DNA of 27,763 nt, taken from a virus. Location of the stretch: positions 1 to 27,763 of the IMG/VR virus record IMGVR_UViG_3300032087_001150; one strand, given 5' to 3'. A model generated the notes under the pieces. That model ran no database searches. It saw nothing but the letters and a program-made list of their open reading frames with translations, and had not been told where the DNA came from. Shown here piece after piece: positions 4,643-17,429 of this stretch. The translations under genes and the position numbers were made by a program. How positions within the stretch are numbered: position 1 is the first letter of the stretch; every line of letters starts with the position of its first letter.

Positions 4643-7600
4643 ATGTCTTTTAAGCCAACTCAAGGTAGAGGTGTTCGTTTGCAGCTTGGCAATATACCAA
4701 ACTTGTCTGGCTTCAAGCAAGCTGCTAATCAGCTAAGTCAATTAGGTCAACTTGCTTATAATATTGGTTTAGATGACAGGAAACGTCAGTATAACGATGC
4801 TATTCTTCAAGCTGAGATAGATGGTAAAACTGCTGGCGTTAAATACGAAACCAATGAAAAAGGTGAGCGTGTTTTAGTTCCTCTTACTAATTTAGATTAT
4901 AGTAAAGCCGCAGAGTTATTTTCTGAAAGTGAACGTAAAGACGTTCTTAAGGCTTTTAGGGAAGCTGCTGTTGGGACTTATGTTACTGCTAAAAAGTTAG
5001 ATATAGAATCACAAGCTGAACAAGCATTAATTAAATCTCCTGCTGATCCAGACCAAATAAGAGGCGAAAAGTCTGGTGTGTTTAAAAGCTTAGAGAGTCT
5101 TGATGATGAGATTCGTGTTGCTTTATCTCCCATTGTTGAAAATTATTTTACTAGAGCTGAAAACAGAGCTTTTGCACAGCAACAGCAAAACGCAAAAGAC
5201 TATGCTTTAGATGTAAATAAAAAGTCATTTAACAGTTTAAATGCTGAATTAAGCGTTCTTCTTAATAAAGCTGATTTAACGGATGATGGTGTTAATGAAA
5301 GAATAGAGGAAATTCTACAAGAACAAGACCAAGTTATTAAACGCTTAGGTCTTAACGGTATGTCTGAACAAGAACTTGAATCACTTCAAGATAGCAGAGA
5401 TACATATCTTTTTTTAGAAGCTTCGAATTCACATATTGAAAGACACTATGCCATAAATGGTGACTATTCAAAATCATTAGAAGAGATTGATAAATATAGA
5501 AAAAATCTATTAGCCGCAGGAAATGTTGATGCAGAAACCATAACTGCAAGCATGGAGTCTAGGCTAAAAACATTACATGGAATCCAGCAAAATGCAGACA
5601 AAGAAGAGTCTGCTAGACAAACTAAAGTTTATGAACAAGCATTATTGGATTTAGTTCTTCGTAAGCCAATAACTATTAAAGATATTCAAAATATGGATAT
5701 TGATGATGGTCAAAAATATAATCTTTTGACTTCATTACAAAGCATTCAAAACACAGATCAAAATGCAAGAGAAGCATTGGCTACAGAAAGTAAAAATCTT
5801 TATAAACAAAACTTTAATAGGCTTATGATTCCATTTAAAGATGAATTTGGAGATGCATCAGCTCGTCAAAGAAATGCTCCTTTAATAGAGCAGATGTATA
5901 TTGATGGGAAAATAGACCCTACTCAGTATAGTAGTTATATTGCTGAGCGTAATACTATATTTAAAAAGCAAGTTAAAACAGCAGCTCAGATTGGAAGAGC
6001 AGAGATAGAAGCTCAAATGTCTGCTAGTTCTGGTTATGCTATTCGTCCACAGGCATTTGTTGATGCCACTGCTGACCTTATAGAAAAAGGAATTGTAGGT
6101 GATTTAGAAGGTCAAATAAGTATATCTGCTTGGCAAAAGAAAATAGAGACTTACAGGAAATCCTACAAGACTTATCATGAGAAGATAAAAAAAGAAGCTT
6201 CTGCAGTAAGTCGTGTTAGAAACTCAGACAATCCTAGTCAATCGGATTTTGAAGTTGTAGCTAAACTTGCTCCTCAGTTACAAGCAGATGAACTTGGTCA
6301 AACACTTAATCATCAAGACCCCTCAATAAGAGAAAGTAATATTCAACAAGCTGTTGAGTTTACTCTTAGTTATAATGCTCTGCATCCTGAAGTTGCTGAT
6401 CAACTTAAAGGGTTAAACGGAATCCAGGATGAAGAAACATTTAACAATAAAATGCAAACATTCAATTTAATTGTAGATTCTATAGCACAAAACGATGAAT
6501 TAGGCGTTGGTTATATGAATGTAATGAAAATTATGAAAGACCAAGGAATTGATGTTACTTCTTTTGAAGTAGCAAGAATTTTTGGTTTTAGAAAATGGAA
6601 TGAAGCACAATCAACTTCAGTTACTGTAAATCCAGACAGAATACTTACTGGTTTATCTTCTCAATATCGAGATTTAGAAACAGCTATAGTGGCTAATTGG
6701 TCTGATTCAACTCAAGGAAGTGGTTGGGGAGATATGATAATTAACTCCTTTGTCCCATTTTACGATACATCTGATGTTGAAGTATTGAAAATGATAGATG
6801 ACATCAAATCAAATGTTCCTGATGAACTTTTTATTAATGGTGATGTAGGTGACGCATATATTGGTGATGAGCGTTTACTTCGTGCGATTAGTCTTGGTGT
6901 TCAACAACAGTTTGCTAGTAAAGCAATCCCAGTAAATGATGAAGGTTTGAAAATAGCAATAAGAGGTGCTTTGTATAATATTGCAGATACAGTAGGTATT
7001 ACTGTTGACTCTCAAGGCACTCCTAATTGGACTGTAAATTCTTGGTATACAGAAGCTGCAAAAAGCATTGGTGATGCTAAAGATATTATTCCAGAAGGTT
7101 TATATAGCGATGATGTTGGCCCTGTAGCTGGTGCGGTATTCTCAGACATTAAAGCCAAGTTTATGGCCAGTAATATTCAAAATGACAAAGCAAGGGAACT
7201 TTTAAATGATGACGGAGTTGTCTACTTAGCCCCTAATCCTACTGTTGGGAAAGCACAAACATATAGGGTAATGGTTCGTGACCCAGATGACCCTTATATA
7301 GTAGAAACATTATTTCCTAGTTACAGGTATGAGTATCATAGCAGTTTACAAAGTCCTGCATTTCTTGCTGCAAATGAAAGAGTAAAGAATGCATCTATTA
7401 GAAACATTATAAGTAACTTTCCAATTATAGGAAATTACTTCAATGCAAAGTTCATAAGGTCAGAGCTTCTTGACCTTACAGAAGATTTAAACAGTAGGTC
7501 ATTTACTGAAAAGTTTGCTGGTTTTATTTTAGAAATTGCTCAAACATTTGATGAAGATGTTGAGGATTTAACTGTTCAAGATTTAATTGAGATTAATCAA

Positions 7601-7702
7601 CTTAAGATAGATGCAGCAGATGTTGCTGTTTTAAGAGATTACCTTGAAGGTAATTTTAACAATGAAGAATACTTAGAAAGATTGGAAAAGCTTTATGAGT
7701 AA
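4643..7702 (+). CDS. Internal virion protein, gp15-like core protein
   Basis: 1019 residues (T7 gp15 is 747). It begins FKPTQGRGVRLQLGNIPNLSG, a basic and proline-containing opening often seen in podovirus internal core proteins, then becomes almost entirely helical with many charged and Gln-rich stretches (for example about residues 170-260). No enzyme motif or membrane segment is visible. It is expected to build the internal core stacked on the portal and then the periplasmic tube during DNA ejection. It is flanked by the gp14-like and gp16-like genes and overlaps the latter by 8 bases (ATGAGTAA). Function rests mainly on position, size and helical composition. Confidence 0.75.
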   Translation: MSFKPTQGRGVRLQLGNIPNLSGFKQAANQLSQLGQLAYNIGLDDRKRQYNDAILQAEIDGKTAGVKYETNEKGERVLVPLTNLDYSKAAELFSESERKDVLKAFREAAVGTYVTAKKLDIESQAEQALIKSPADPDQIRGEKSGVFKSLESLDDEIRVALSPIVENYFTRAENRAFAQQQQNAKDYALDVNKKSFNSLNAELSVLLNKADLTDDGVNERIEEILQEQDQVIKRLGLNGMSEQELESLQDSRDTYLFLEASNSHIERHYAINGDYSKSLEEIDKYRKNLLAAGNVDAETITASMESRLKTLHGIQQNADKEESARQTKVYEQALLDLVLRKPITIKDIQNMDIDDGQKYNLLTSLQSIQNTDQNAREALATESKNLYKQNFNRLMIPFKDEFGDASARQRNAPLIEQMYIDGKIDPTQYSSYIAERNTIFKKQVKTAAQIGRAEIEAQMSASSGYAIRPQAFVDATADLIEKGIVGDLEGQISISAWQKKIETYRKSYKTYHEKIKKEASAVSRVRNSDNPSQSDFEVVAKLAPQLQADELGQTLNHQDPSIRESNIQQAVEFTLSYNALHPEVADQLKGLNGIQDEETFNNKMQTFNLIVDSIAQNDELGVGYMNVMKIMKDQGIDVTSFEVARIFGFRKWNEAQSTSVTVNPDRILTGLSSQYRDLETAIVANWSDSTQGSGWGDMIINSFVPFYDTSDVEVLKMIDDIKSNVPDELFINGDVGDAYIGDERLLRAISLGVQQQFASKAIPVNDEGLKIAIRGALYNIADTVGITVDSQGTPNWTVNSWYTEAAKSIGDAKDIIPEGLYSDDVGPVAGAVFSDIKAKFMASNIQNDKARELLNDDGVVYLAPNPTVGKAQTYRVMVRDPDDPYIVETLFPSYRYEYHSSLQSPAFLAANERVKNASIRNIISNFPIIGNYFNAKFIRSELLDLTEDLNSRSFTEKFAGFILEIAQTFDEDVEDLTVQDLIEINQLKIDAADVAVLRDYLEGNFNNEEYLERLEKLYE

Positions 7703-10700
7703 CTGGATTGATGACTATATGAAGATACTTGCCAAACATGAGGGAACTCGTGGAGCAAGGGCTATTGAAGGTGGTGGTTATACAAGGGGATATGGTCTTA
7801 CTGATTTAGCTCAAAGCTTTCTAAATCACCTAATGCAAACAAAAGGTGCTAATGCTGATGAAATGTCAGACAAAAAGCTTGCTAGAGAATATGTCATTTG
7901 GAATGCAGAACAGATAAGTAATCAGTTTGATAATTATGATGAGTGGCCTGACAGCGTAAAAATGGCTGCTGTAGACCTTGCATATAATGGTGGTAACATC
8001 ACTCGATTTAAAGGATTTACTACTGCTTTAAGAGAAGGTCGTTATCAAGACGCTATGAGTGAAACATTAGATGTAGTTGCTGCTAATGATCCAGAAACAG
8101 GTAAACGTGGTGCTTTGCGTGGTCTTGGTAATAGACGTTTTGATATATATAACTACGTTGCAGATGAGTTAGAGTTTCCAGAAATAACTGGCTTGAAGGT
8201 ATTGAAGCGAGGTACAGGAAGCTTGTTTTCCTATACAACCGCTGATGGGGCTACAATAGATAAAGCTATTGGCTCACCTATTCACTCTGCTTCGGGTTCT
8301 TATGATCCACCTTTAAAAAAAAAGATTAAACCTGTAGTTGAAGAGGGGTCTCTTACAAAAGATTTAAGTAATCAAGAGCTTGTTGAATTGGCTCAACAAA
8401 AAATTACTGAGTCAAGAAATTTAAGGGAAGACCCCCCTCAGACCATTACAGCTACAAAAATTGAACCAGATGAACCAGAACAAGAAGCAGAAGTTGATGA
8501 GCCTGTTTCTGTAAAACCTGTTCAACCAGTTACTTTACCAGAATTTGAATTTGACAATATGTATGTTCAGAGGATGGCATCTGTTCCAGAACCAAAGCCA
8601 TTAAATTTAAATTTACAAAAAGAGCCAGACCTTAGAAAAAAATTACAACAAACTATTGAAGAAGATTATGAAAACAATGGGCAGTTTGCTCAGTTTATCA
8701 AAAGAGAAGAAAACGGTTTAGCTGCACCATTTTTATTTACAGATGATTTTAGCACAATAGCAAGAGCTGCTTTTAATCAGGTCAACCCAATTAAAGCTGG
8801 GATAGACTGGTATAATGATAAGCTTTTTATGATTGATGATGATCCAAATTATGATTTTATAAAAGACGAGCAACTTAAACCATATCAAAACTCACTGTGG
8901 AGATTTTACGATAGTAAAAGCTCAGAAGAAACGGCAAAAAGAATTAAACGACTTAAGCAAGAACAAGAAGATCAGTCTATATTGTCATCTAGCAGTGGTT
9001 CAGAAATAACTTTTGGTGCTGCGTTACTTACTCCATCTACGTTACTCCCTATTGCTCCTTTGAAGGTTTTAAAATCAAAAAGTATGCTTGATAGAGCATT
9101 GTATGGTGGCTTGTTTACAGGCGGTGCTGTGGGTGCAGAACAGGCCATACTATCTTCACAAAGAGAATTACGCTCTCCATCAGATGTTATAAAAGCGATT
9201 GGAATATCTGCGGCTATTGGAAGTAGTGTTACTGCTGCTTTTGGAAGAACGATAGCCAAAGGTAAAATAACGCAACAGCAACAAAGAAATAGACAAAAAA
9301 GAAGAACAAAAGACCCAATGTACAAAGCTGCTGGTGCAAGTGTAAACCCAGATATTTTGCGTAGACAAGCCTATGAAACAATCGAACAAGATTCACTTAA
9401 GGAAACTGGTGTTGGTATAGAAAAATTAGGTTGGAATCCAGTAATACGTTTGTTGCAAAGTCCTAACCCCATTGTAAGGGGTGTTGTAGCAGAGCTTGTT
9501 GACCTTGGCGGTATGATGCAAAAGAAAGTTGATGACGAAGTAGCTATGTCTACCAGTGTTGAGAAAAACTTTTCTGCTTTGTACACTGGCAGACTTTTGG
9601 AAGCTATTCGTTCATTAGACGAACAGTATCTTGCCTATAGAGGTGTTGTTGCAAAAGATGGTGATGTTGCTAGGTCATTTCAAATAATGCATATACAAGC
9701 CAAGGATAAATTTAAAAGAACTCTTAATTCTTTAACAGAATATGAGTTTAGGGTTCGTGTTGCTAAGGCTATGCGTAGAGGAGATGAAGACAGTGTTATT
9801 GATGCTGCAACCCCTTACGTTAATCAGGCTGCTCAAAAGAGTCGTGTGCAATTTAACTTTATCAAAAAACAAGCAGAAGAAGTAAAATTACATGAAGAAC
9901 AAATTGTTCGGTCTTTGCGTTCAGCCAGAGCATCTGATGCTCCCCCAGCAAGAATAGCTGAGTTAGAACAAAGATTAGAACGTGTAAGGGCAGAAGGAGT
10001 ATTTTTAAACTCTGCTGCTTCTTATGTGCCAAGAGTATATCGTGTAGATAAGATTATGGCAGATGAGATTAGGTTTCGAGATATTATAAGAAACTATGCG
10101 TCTACAAGACTTGGCTTAGCTGGTAATGATTTAGAAAAATATGTGGATGATGTTTTTGATGGTGTAACCAAACAAAAACCTTATCACGCTATAGATGAAG
10201 CTGATGACCTCGAAGATGTTGTAGTCGCTTCTGGTTTGAGATCAAGAGAGATTGATATAGATGATATTCTTATAGAAGACTTTCTTGAAAATGATATAGA
10301 AGTTTTACTGCGTCACCACACAACCAGAATGGGTATGGATATCGAGCTTACAAAAACCTTTGGTTCTGTTGATATGAAGAATGTCATTAACCAAGTTAAA
10401 TCAGAATATAGCAGACTCATATCTGAAACATCAGATGTAGCCAAAAAAGCAGAACTAAATAAAAACCTGCTTGCTGATTTGCGAGATATAAGAGGGTTGC
10501 GTGATAGAGTTCGTGGTACTTATGGAGCCTCGAAAGACCCCCATGCTGTGTCCAGTAGATTTGTTAGAACAATGAAATCATTCAATGTCATTGTAGGTAT
10601 GGGCGGTGCAACCATATCTTCTATACCTGATATTGCCAGAACAGCAATGGTTGAAGGTTTTAAGGCTAGTTACGATAAAGGGCTTGCTAAAGCATTTAGC

Positions 10701-11723
10701 CAACAATCTGCACAATTAAGGAAGATGACTAAAAAAGAGCTTAGGTCATCTGGCGTTGCTGCTGATGCAATCTTAGGTTTGCGTTCAAGCGCAATGGCAG
10801 ACCTTGGAGACATATTTGGAAATAGATTTGCTATTGAAAGATTTATGAACCAAAGCGTTGGTGTAATGTTTTTTATGAATGGTCTGAATATATGGAATCA
10901 GACTCTTAAAGAGTTTGCTGGCACTGTTACAATGCTTCGTATGACTGAAGATATTATGAAGCCTTGGAATAATCTAGCAAAAGCGCAAAAAGAAAAATTT
11001 CTAAAAGTAGGCATAGATGGAAATATGCACACTAGAATGCAAAGCCTTATAAGAACTCATGGTGAGCAAGTAGATGGTGAATGGATGCCTAATACTTCTT
11101 TATGGGGAGATCAGACAGCAAGACTGGTATTTAGACAAGCTTTAAATAAATCTGTCGATAGAGTTATTATAACACCTGGGGCTGGTGACAGAGCTTTGTG
11201 GACATCTCGTGAGCTTGGCTCATTGCTTACACAATTCAAATCTTTTGGACAGGGTGCAACTGTAAGAATGCTTACATCAGGATTACAAGAACGTGATGGA
11301 GCATTTTGGCAAGGTGCATTTTTGCTTGTAGGACTTGCAGCCTTAGTAAATGAAATTAAAAGATTGCAGTATGGCATTGATAGAGAAGAAACTTTTGATG
11401 AAAAACTTATCAATGCTATAGATAGGTCTGGAATACTGGGTTATTTTATGGACGTTAATAATGCTATTGAAAAGATAAGCAATAGAGAGATTGGTTTAAG
11501 GCCAGCTATTACTGACCAAAGGTCTTATCCTATGCCTATGGGAGCAAAGGCATCAGCAGTCGCTGGCCCAACAGCAGGGAATATTACTAATCTTGCTGGT
11601 ATTATGGGTGATTTAGTTGGCTTTAGAGCTGATGCAGATACACTTAAAAGCGTAAGCTTTTTGGTTCCTTATTCTAACTTACCTTACACTCAACCTGTTT
11701 CTAACATGATTTTTAATAAGTAA
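7695..11723 (+). CDS. Internal virion protein, gp16-like, with N-terminal lysozyme-type domain
   Basis: 1342 residues, near the 1318 of T7 gp16. Residues 1-155 read as a T4-lysozyme/GH24-like muramidase: HEGTRGARAIEGGG (E16 the likely acid) followed by YTRGYGLTD (29-37), then AAVDLAYNGGN (about 92-102) and a closing LGNRRFDIYNY near 143-153. T7 gp16 instead carries a lytic transglycosylase, so the peptidoglycan-cutting module differs. A Pro/Glu-rich linker (about 210-290) separates it from a long helical core domain with hydrophobic patches near 442-480 and 1202-1220. The virion lysozyme would open a local hole in the cell wall for DNA entry. A T TTA AAA slippery run sits at codons 206-208 (8312-8323). 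Catalytic residues are inferred from motif spacing. Confidence 0.8.
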   Translation: MSNWIDDYMKILAKHEGTRGARAIEGGGYTRGYGLTDLAQSFLNHLMQTKGANADEMSDKKLAREYVIWNAEQISNQFDNYDEWPDSVKMAAVDLAYNGGNITRFKGFTTALREGRYQDAMSETLDVVAANDPETGKRGALRGLGNRRFDIYNYVADELEFPEITGLKVLKRGTGSLFSYTTADGATIDKAIGSPIHSASGSYDPPLKKKIKPVVEEGSLTKDLSNQELVELAQQKITESRNLREDPPQTITATKIEPDEPEQEAEVDEPVSVKPVQPVTLPEFEFDNMYVQRMASVPEPKPLNLNLQKEPDLRKKLQQTIEEDYENNGQFAQFIKREENGLAAPFLFTDDFSTIARAAFNQVNPIKAGIDWYNDKLFMIDDDPNYDFIKDEQLKPYQNSLWRFYDSKSSEETAKRIKRLKQEQEDQSILSSSSGSEITFGAALLTPSTLLPIAPLKVLKSKSMLDRALYGGLFTGGAVGAEQAILSSQRELRSPSDVIKAIGISAAIGSSVTAAFGRTIAKGKITQQQQRNRQKRRTKDPMYKAAGASVNPDILRRQAYETIEQDSLKETGVGIEKLGWNPVIRLLQSPNPIVRGVVAELVDLGGMMQKKVDDEVAMSTSVEKNFSALYTGRLLEAIRSLDEQYLAYRGVVAKDGDVARSFQIMHIQAKDKFKRTLNSLTEYEFRVRVAKAMRRGDEDSVIDAATPYVNQAAQKSRVQFNFIKKQAEEVKLHEEQIVRSLRSARASDAPPARIAELEQRLERVRAEGVFLNSAASYVPRVYRVDKIMADEIRFRDIIRNYASTRLGLAGNDLEKYVDDVFDGVTKQKPYHAIDEADDLEDVVVASGLRSREIDIDDILIEDFLENDIEVLLRHHTTRMGMDIELTKTFGSVDMKNVINQVKSEYSRLISETSDVAKKAELNKNLLADLRDIRGLRDRVRGTYGASKDPHAVSSRFVRTMKSFNVIVGMGGATISSIPDIARTAMVEGFKASYDKGLAKAFSQQSAQLRKMTKKELRSSGVAADAILGLRSSAMADLGDIFGNRFAIERFMNQSVGVMFFMNGLNIWNQTLKEFAGTVTMLRMTEDIMKPWNNLAKAQKEKFLKVGIDGNMHTRMQSLIRTHGEQVDGEWMPNTSLWGDQTARLVFRQALNKSVDRVIITPGAGDRALWTSRELGSLLTQFKSFGQGATVRMLTSGLQERDGAFWQGAFLLVGLAALVNEIKRLQYGIDREETFDEKLINAIDRSGILGYFMDVNNAIEKISNREIGLRPAITDQRSYPMPMGAKASAVAGPTAGNITNLAGIMGDLVGFRADADTLKSVSFLVPYSNLPYTQPVSNMIFNK
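8312..8323 (+). promoter_or_regulatory. Candidate slippery sequence after the lysozyme domain
   Basis: The reading frame goes CCT TTA AAA AAA AAG, which gives the heptamer T TTA AAA in the correct phase plus a run of nine A (8315-8323). A -1 slip would add K-K-D and stop at TAA 8327-8329, giving a product of about 211 residues that is the lysozyme domain alone. The other frame also stops quickly (TAG 8335-8337). Whether slippage occurs is unknown; no stimulatory hairpin was identified just downstream. Confidence 0.3.
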
Positions 11724-16417: not shown

Positions 16418-16885
16418 ATGGCTATCGACCCTTTGACCGCCATTGCTGTAGCAACTACGGCATACAAGGGTATAGTCAAAGCTTTTCAAACAGGCAAAGA
16501 AATTGAGGCTATGTCTAAGGACATAGGTAAGTGGATGGGTGCTATTGCTGATGTAAAGCAAGCCCATCAAGAAAAGAAAACATCTCGATTTAAAAACGTA
16601 GAAGAACAAGCTCTTGATACTTTTCAAGCTTTGAAGAAAGCAGAAAAGATGGAGATGGATTTAAAGAACTTTCTTATAGCTAACTACGGCTTTAATGCTT
16701 GGAATGATTTACAGCGCATTCAACGTGATATGAGAAAGGCTAAATTAGAAGAAAAGCGTTTAAAGGAAAAACGTGTAGCAGAAATCATGGATATGCTTGG
16801 TCTTGGTTTTGTAAGCATATTGATAGCAGCTATGGTAGGTGGTTTAGTTGCATGGATGGTTTGGCTTAAAGGAGGCTTTAAATGA
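16418..16885 (+). CDS. 155-residue coiled-coil protein with C-terminal membrane anchor
   Basis: Residues 1-20 are mildly hydrophobic (LTAIAVATTAYKGIV), 25-120 are charged and helical with likely coiled coil (for example RDMRKAKLEEKRLKEKRVAE), and 126-150 form a strong transmembrane segment (GLGFVSILIAAMVGGLVAWM) followed by KGGFK. Not recognised as a named family. In the cassette of small membrane proteins it could be a spanin-like or holin-associated component, but no lipobox or signal anchor supports a spanin specifically. The end overlaps the next gene (ATGA). Confidence 0.6.
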   Translation: MAIDPLTAIAVATTAYKGIVKAFQTGKEIEAMSKDIGKWMGAIADVKQAHQEKKTSRFKNVEEQALDTFQALKKAEKMEMDLKNFLIANYGFNAWNDLQRIQRDMRKAKLEEKRLKEKRVAEIMDMLGLGFVSILIAAMVGGLVAWMVWLKGGFK

Positions 16886-17088
16886 GTGCAGAAGATGTGG
16901 CTCGCAAAATGTTAGAGCTAAAAATACTTCCTAGGTTTATGATGTTATGCATGACAGGTGTGTATATACGTTGCATTGAGTGGGCATTATCACAGCCGGA
17001 TTTAACAACTCAACAGGCTTCGTTAATATCGGTTGTCACTGGTGCAATGACAGGCAGTCTGGCTGTTTGGCTTGGGAGTGAGAAATGA
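16882..17088 (+). CDS. 68-residue two-span membrane protein, probable holin component
   Basis: Starts in ATGA overlap and ends in ATGA overlap, so it is translationally coupled on both sides. Two hydrophobic stretches are present: about residues 15-34 (ILPRFMMLCMTGVYIRCIEW) and 46-65 (ASLISVVTGAMTGSLAVWLG). Size and topology fit a small class II-like holin or antiholin. Context, directly before a recognisable 3TM holin, supports a role in host lysis. No specific family is recognised. Confidence 0.6.
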   Translation: MSAEDVARKMLELKILPRFMMLCMTGVYIRCIEWALSQPDLTTQQASLISVVTGAMTGSLAVWLGSEK

Positions 17089-17429
17089 TACAGTTACTCG
17101 GTATTGCTGGCAGCCTTGCCAAAACATTTTTAGAAGGCAAGGTAGAAAAAGAAAAAGCCAAAGCAGAGGTTATGAAGACTGCGGCTCAACATGATAGTAA
17201 ATGGGAACTAATCATGGCTGAGTCTACAAAAGGAAGCTGGAAAGACGAGGCAGTCACGATTGTCGTGTTAGTGCCTGTGATAATGTGCTTTATTCCTGGC
17301 ACTGAGGAACTTGTAAAGTCTGGGTTTGACAGGCTCAATGAGTTGCCTGACTGGTATCAGTATCTACTTTACCTTGTTTGTAGTGCTGCGCTTGGCATTA
17401 AAGGACTGGATAGACTTCTTCGCAAGTGA
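17085..17429 (+). CDS. Holin of the gene-transfer-agent 3TM type
   Basis: 114 residues. An N-terminal helical region with KVEKEKAKAEV (about 19-29) is followed by the signature GSWKDE (50-55), a hydrophobic segment VTIVVLVPVIMCFIPG (57-72), then a LPDWYQYLLYLVCSAALG segment (87-104). The GSWKDE-hydrophobic-xxP-W pattern is that of GTA_holin_3TM proteins, common in alphaproteobacterial phages and gene transfer agents. It would permeabilise the inner membrane at lysis. It is the last rightward late gene, and its 3' end overlaps a leftward gene by 66 bases. Confidence 0.75.
   Translation: MIQLLGIAGSLAKTFLEGKVEKEKAKAEVMKTAAQHDSKWELIMAESTKGSWKDEAVTIVVLVPVIMCFIPGTEELVKSGFDRLNELPDWYQYLLYLVCSAALGIKGLDRLLRK

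Follow-up and report, generated by a model that had tools for sequence, protein, structure and literature searches.

The window analyzed here, meaning the whole stretch of 27,763 bases, is a virus record whose plus strand carries an internal virion protein (IVP) gene. The following features were identified:

7695..11723, plus strand: IVP gene, T7 gp16-like, zero-frame product of 1342 aa (open reading frame; phrog_342 and phrog_16310)
7695..8309, plus strand: N-terminal lysozyme domain with a predicted GH24/T4-lysozyme fold (profiles, predicted structure, residue invariance)
8312-8318, plus strand: T TTA AAA, in frame (sequence)
8315..8323, plus strand: A9 slippery run, which is the element that is conserved (relatives have A8 or A9; sequence; 71/71 fused junctions)
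8318..8324, plus strand: in-frame A AAA AAG heptamer of the dnaX type (sequence)
8327..8329, plus strand: TAA reached by a -1 slip, end of a 211-aa lysozyme (sequence)
8335..8337, plus strand: stop reached by a +1 slip (sequence)
8703..11717, plus strand: gp16-like IVP region, in the zero-frame product only (phrog_342 match, residues 337-1341)
16418..17429, plus strand: three small genes (155, 68, and 114 aa) that occupy the place of a holin/spanin-like cassette and include no endolysin (open reading frames, PHROG scan)

The IVP gene matched phrog_342, "internal virion protein with endolysin domain" (E 2.1e-68), by which its C-terminal body is identified as T7 gp16-like, and phrog_16310 (E 4.1e-108). 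An upstream ORF (4643-7702) overlaps the start of the IVP gene by 8 bases, which suggests translational coupling. In the downstream cassette, a membrane segment was scored in two of the three small genes. Alignment to the relatives G001 and G003 suggests that the window is short of about 7 kb of its genome.

The first ~200 residues of the IVP had weak matches to endolysin profiles (PHROG endolysin, 3.6e-5). No informative match was found for the lysozyme domain alone in Pfam, PF00959 included, or by sequence in the PDB, and PF00959 matched the corresponding domain in seven of 11 relatives with a best E of 0.024, below the cut-off. An AF2 model of the domain (mean pLDDT 89.7) was matched by Foldseek to the AbLys1 endolysin (8app, probability 1.00) and T4 lysozyme (0.99), with no match at E <0.001. 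VIA-align superposed the model on the prophage muramidase 6et6 with a Z of 13.0 (rmsd 3.2 over 138 residues), on the R21 endolysin with a Z of 12.2, and on pesticin with a Z of 9.8. As modeled, the N-terminal domain is of the T4-lysozyme type. Glu16, Glu25, and Thr30 were invariant in all 24 lysozyme domains compared, and, by spacing only, they may correspond to E11, D20, and T26 of T4 lysozyme. Some cultured pelagiphages have a similar IVP body but a different N-terminal lysozyme, of the pesticin type, and the two types share no detectable sequence similarity.

Positions 8310-8327, in the linker after the lysozyme domain, read CCT TTA AAA AAA AAG ATT. The A9 is the longest A or T run of the window, and TTTAAAAAAAAA occurs only once in the whole record. 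A preliminary description of this DNA had proposed that the A9 tract and the in-frame T TTA AAA could release a free lysozyme, with a -1 slip meeting the TAA at 8327-8329 after 211 residues and the third frame closing at 8335. Each of these elements was present as described, and the predicted -1 product has a mass of 23.3 kDa and the C-terminus LKKKD.

Relatives were collected by two routes. Searches with the lysozyme domain gave 22 loci and a further 48 loci from viral contigs, many of which share contigs, with one from a metagenome-assembled genome (MAG), and using the IVP body as the query added 77 loci. The 181 loci with a match reduced to 76 distinct junctions, including 71 fused, three stand-alone, and two cut off by contig ends. 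The run was present in all 22 loci of the first lysozyme-domain set and in 24 of the 27 further loci read from the second; of the other three, L068 and L070 end before the tract and L069 has a disrupting frameshift upstream of it. Similarly, 69 of the 77 IVP-body loci carried the run at the junction. Four others were cut, with L125 beginning inside the run and L131, L162, and L178 after it, and the last four (L176, L177, L179, and L180) were IVPs with neither a lysozyme domain nor the run. Hence, the check proposed at the outset, conservation in related phages, was borne out in every covered relative with a fused lysozyme: all 71 distinct fused junctions contained an A8 (50) or an A9 (21). The run was absent from all three stand-alone lysozyme homologues, found in the Vibrio phages VBM1 and 1.154.O and as gp53 of pelagiphage HTVC031P.

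Several records showed individual peculiarities. In IMGVR_UViG_3300000116_005513 (L069/L112), a frameshift upstream of the tract breaks the lysozyme domain, either as an assembly error or as a real change; L112 is counted among the 71 junctions. The second IVP piece of HTVC309P (L099, 30909-33386) is annotated as two ORFs, unlike in its relatives. One contig assigned to a Legionellales MAG carries a relative of the phage gene (L071, PBNF01000016.1); this contig may come from a phage and have been binned wrongly, or it may point to a host.

The run was conserved as nucleotides rather than as a fixed peptide or codon context. The codon before it was CTA, GTA, TTA, or ATA. Close relatives read xTA AAA AAA AAG, distant relatives (38-44% identity) read CTA AAA AAA ACT or AGT, and the cultured pelagiphages with the pesticin-type lysozyme read TCG CTA AAA AAA AGY at the same lysozyme/IVP boundary. 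The encoded residues included SLKKTD, SLKKSI, TVKKKT, DVKKNL, LIKKKS, and AKKKLT. In L135 and L140, the string TCGCTAAAAAAAAG is translated in another frame, giving AKKK instead of LKKS; the in-frame A AAA AAG is retained there and the -1 stop lies three codons further on. The slippery element first proposed therefore stood in part: the A8/A9 is conserved, while T TTA AAA was ruled out as a conserved signal because the base before TA varies and the run begins at another codon position in two junctions.

The motif [LVI]KK[TSKN] occurred 75 times in 20 genomes and was A8-coded at 12 of 12 tract sites versus two of 63 others (Fisher 3.5e-12, or 2e-5 when only four independent lineages are counted). 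When synonymous codons were drawn within each gene, the joint probability that the run is kept in 10 clusters (defined at <80% identity) was 10^-6.25, a product that assumes independence of the clusters. A Fisher p of 0.09 on the same draws was not used, as that combination is unsuited to yes/no events. Shared ancestry of the sequences is ignored in the gene-background and shuffle tests and is not fully corrected in the motif and codon-draw statistics. The two A8-coded sites outside IVP genes are both at codon 52 (LLKKS) of small genes in HTVC200P (L095, 38640-38999) and Jormungand (L103, 32333-32698), and are possibly a second conserved slip site.

These results bear on three explanations without functional slippage. 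The preliminary description had allowed that the tract may be chance in an AT-rich gene, and pelagiphage genomes do have A8 runs elsewhere; the constant position of the run across all 71 fused junctions, with the contrast to the control sites given above, rules out this origin, to which we attach practically no probability. Alternatively, the lysine pair could be a pause site that aids folding of the lysozyme, with truncation as a by-product. Such a site would be expected where the run is found, exactly at the domain boundary, but it needs neither AAA over AAG nor an A on both sides of the lysines, and the same genomes use a coding other than A8 at 61 of their 63 other [LVI]KK[TSKN] sites, so that we regard it as very improbable. 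The run could also be a recombination joint for swapping lysozyme modules, as the same string, for example TCGCTAAAAAAAA, is found between similar IVP bodies and either of two lysozyme types, and the match of S42C7 to L011 (81.6%) starts at residue 200, exactly where the tract lies. However, the joint would have to be an A8 or an A9 with differing neighbors (CTA, GTA, TTA, ATA), a pure A-run is unneeded for it, IVPs without a lysozyme domain have none, and every junction combines an in-frame A AAA AAN with closed alternative frames. This explanation is improbable, though less so than a pause site.

Slippage itself was examined through the known signals. All 71 junctions contained an in-frame A AAA AAN heptamer, as in ribosomal frameshift sites, and a homopolymer of about 8-9 A, as in transcriptional slippage. 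The -1 frame closes within 1-5 codons in 71 of 71 junctions and the +1 frame within 1-10 codons in 70, the exception being L112. Since both shifted frames close early, a slip in either direction would end with a free lysozyme. The closeness of the -1 stop (within 1-5 codons in 19 of 19 representatives) was dropped as evidence, because the same genes have an equally near stop at 24-58% of their positions (0.24-0.58 each), so that the closeness is not beyond the gene background. Among the 19 representatives, a Shine-Dalgarno-like stimulator was found upstream in three and was absent from 16, and downstream RNA structure gave no consistent signal (z from -2.4 to +1.7). Classical stimulated -1 frameshifting is thus not indicated, and unstimulated ribosomal or transcriptional slippage is plausible. 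For the former, sliding of E. coli ribosomes on consecutive AAA codons and termination at out-of-frame stops have been described (PMC4363877); for the latter, slippage of T7 RNA polymerase at A/T runs yields indel transcripts and restores frames (PMC6260861). Five of the six tract-bearing pelagiphage-type genomes have an annotated T7-like RNA polymerase, and none is listed for the sixth.

These six complete genomes (Bylgja, HTVC120P, HTVC134P, HTVC309P, S46C10, and S42C7) were compared with eight sister pelagiphage-type genomes without the tract. In the sisters, a T7-3.5-like amidase follows endonuclease I; tblastn found this amidase in all eight and GH24 lysozymes in six, and each thus has at least one stand-alone lysis enzyme. 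In contrast, tblastn in the six tract-bearing genomes found no T7-3.5-like amidase and no lysozyme besides the fused domain. As the six form one related group, the contrast of 6/6 with 8/8 may represent few independent losses. Profile searches agreed: Amidase_2 matched in three of three non-tract records and in none of eight tract records, and PF00959 was above the cut-off in two of three and none of eight, respectively, with two weak matches inside the fused gene; the eight tract records include two relatives of the window. A PF00959 search over 14 records found nothing and is by itself uninformative, since even the fused domains were missed. One lysozyme query run without a positive control was likewise uninformative and not counted. 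Two further queries were rejected as lysis evidence: 'ami_S28', in spite of how it is annotated, resembles a membrane protein, and 'pept_S28' bears no resemblance to a lysis enzyme. In HTVC031P, the stand-alone pesticin-type lysozyme (L091, 39753-40292) lies after DNA maturase B, in a slot that holds a GH24 lysozyme in several sisters.

The near-complete relatives G001 and G003 yielded no T7-3.5-like amidase or GH24 lysozyme gene. G003 is 87% identical to the window in the lysozyme domain and is probably a complete genome, as its ends overlap by 206 bases. Ten of its ORFs searched against PHROGs and eight against Pfam, including the cassette at 28355-29940 that is equivalent to the holin/spanin-like genes of the window, gave no endolysin; the remaining ORFs were inspected by eye and covered by the lysis-gene queries and the Amidase_2 and PF00959 profiles. 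A very divergent endolysin could escape such searches, for example in the partly scanned small ORFs of the six pelagiphage-type genomes or in a 139-aa ORF of G003 (L074, 7297-7716), which directly follows a large ORF (5690-7300) and had no PHROG or Pfam match. The preliminary description had noted no other endolysin gene near the holin-like cassette; the searches of G001, G003, and the six complete genomes likewise found no dedicated endolysin, and comparative evidence favors its suggestion that one gene may supply both the virion lysozyme and the lysis enzyme.

The run is conserved, the alternative frames are closed, the upstream domain has a lysozyme fold as modeled, and no separate endolysin was found. 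We infer from sequence comparison that slippage takes place at some frequency, on one machine or the other, and that its product lyses the cell; overall, it is likely that slippage on the A8/A9 run, by a -1 move of the ribosome or by RNA polymerase, frees an endolysin from the IVP gene. One gene would thereby give two proteins. Most of the machinery would read through the run and produce the IVP with its N-terminal lysozyme, which is thought to aid DNA entry as T7 gp16 does. A fraction would slip, either as ribosomes moving by -1 on A AAA AAN or as an RNA polymerase (in pelagiphages probably the phage's own T7-type enzyme) adding or dropping an A. The shifted frame would meet a stop within a few codons and leave a complete lysozyme of 211 aa in the window and 182 aa in Bylgja. 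This putative endolysin, let out by holin-like genes elsewhere, would stand in for the dedicated endolysin gene of the sister phages.

Alternatively, slippage may be real with the short lysozyme serving as a second virion or assembly component, or as a throttle on the full-length IVP, and not as a lysis enzyme. By profile, all fused genes tested code for virion proteins, and setting fixed ratios of short to long products is a known use of frameshifting, as in dnaX and the tail chaperones. Against this role, which we consider unlikely, the complete tract genomes lack the amidase and lysozyme that their sisters encode as separate genes, and the product that would be released is as long as an endolysin encoded on its own (182 aa in Bylgja versus 181 aa in the VBM1 homologue). 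Taking release of an endolysin as the preferred reading, we lean toward the broader proposal that, in several lineages of marine phages, such a slippage tap has taken the place of the endolysin gene, with different lysozymes placed upstream of one conserved A8/A9; the amount of endolysin would then be a constant share of that of a virion protein, which would couple the onset of lysis to virion production.

In the literature searched, which included few subscription journals, no paper was found that describes the tract or the release of an endolysin from an IVP. A 'pesticin domain protein' gene is mentioned as part of a variable region in one paper (PMC5628999), and a term search of the main text of the Bylgja paper returned no endolysin, holin, lysozyme, or pesticin (PMC8163748). 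If correct, the proposed release would explain how host lysis is possible for sequenced SAR11 phages in which no endolysin is annotated, and a single gene would serve both entry and exit. A lysozyme domain followed by an A8/A9 within a virion protein gene, unmarked in the annotations examined, would be a cheap signature of such genes, and the tract would offer a natural system for slippage studies without obvious stimulators.

In T7, the IVP gp16 has an N-terminal transglycosylase, and the separate endolysin is the gp3.5 amidase. The tract-bearing IVPs similarly carry a murein hydrolase at the N-terminus, but theirs is a GH24- or pesticin-type lysozyme, and a gene-3.5-type amidase was not found where the tract is present. 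The pelagiphages HTVC019P, HTVC131P, Jormungand, and others share the T7-like genome plan and related capsid proteins, whereas their IVPs start without a lysozyme domain or an A8 near the N-terminus and dedicated lysis genes, amidase and lysozyme, are present. A mechanistic likeness is to dnaX, where gamma is released from tau by frameshifting on A AAA AAG in E. coli and by transcriptional slippage on an A9 in Thermus. In both dnaX and the phage gene, an A-rich run and an early out-of-frame stop would yield a short protein that consists of the N-terminal domains of its full-length counterpart. They differ in gene and purpose; in addition, no Shine-Dalgarno-like stimulator precedes the phage tract in 16 of the 19 representatives, no consistent structure follows it, and most phage members have A8 instead of A6G. 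Among frameshift-containing lysins, a Lactococcus phage lysin (Shearman 1994, cited in PMC10885494) comes, by its title, from two overlapping genes, whereas here a slip would cut the lysozyme from a virion protein.
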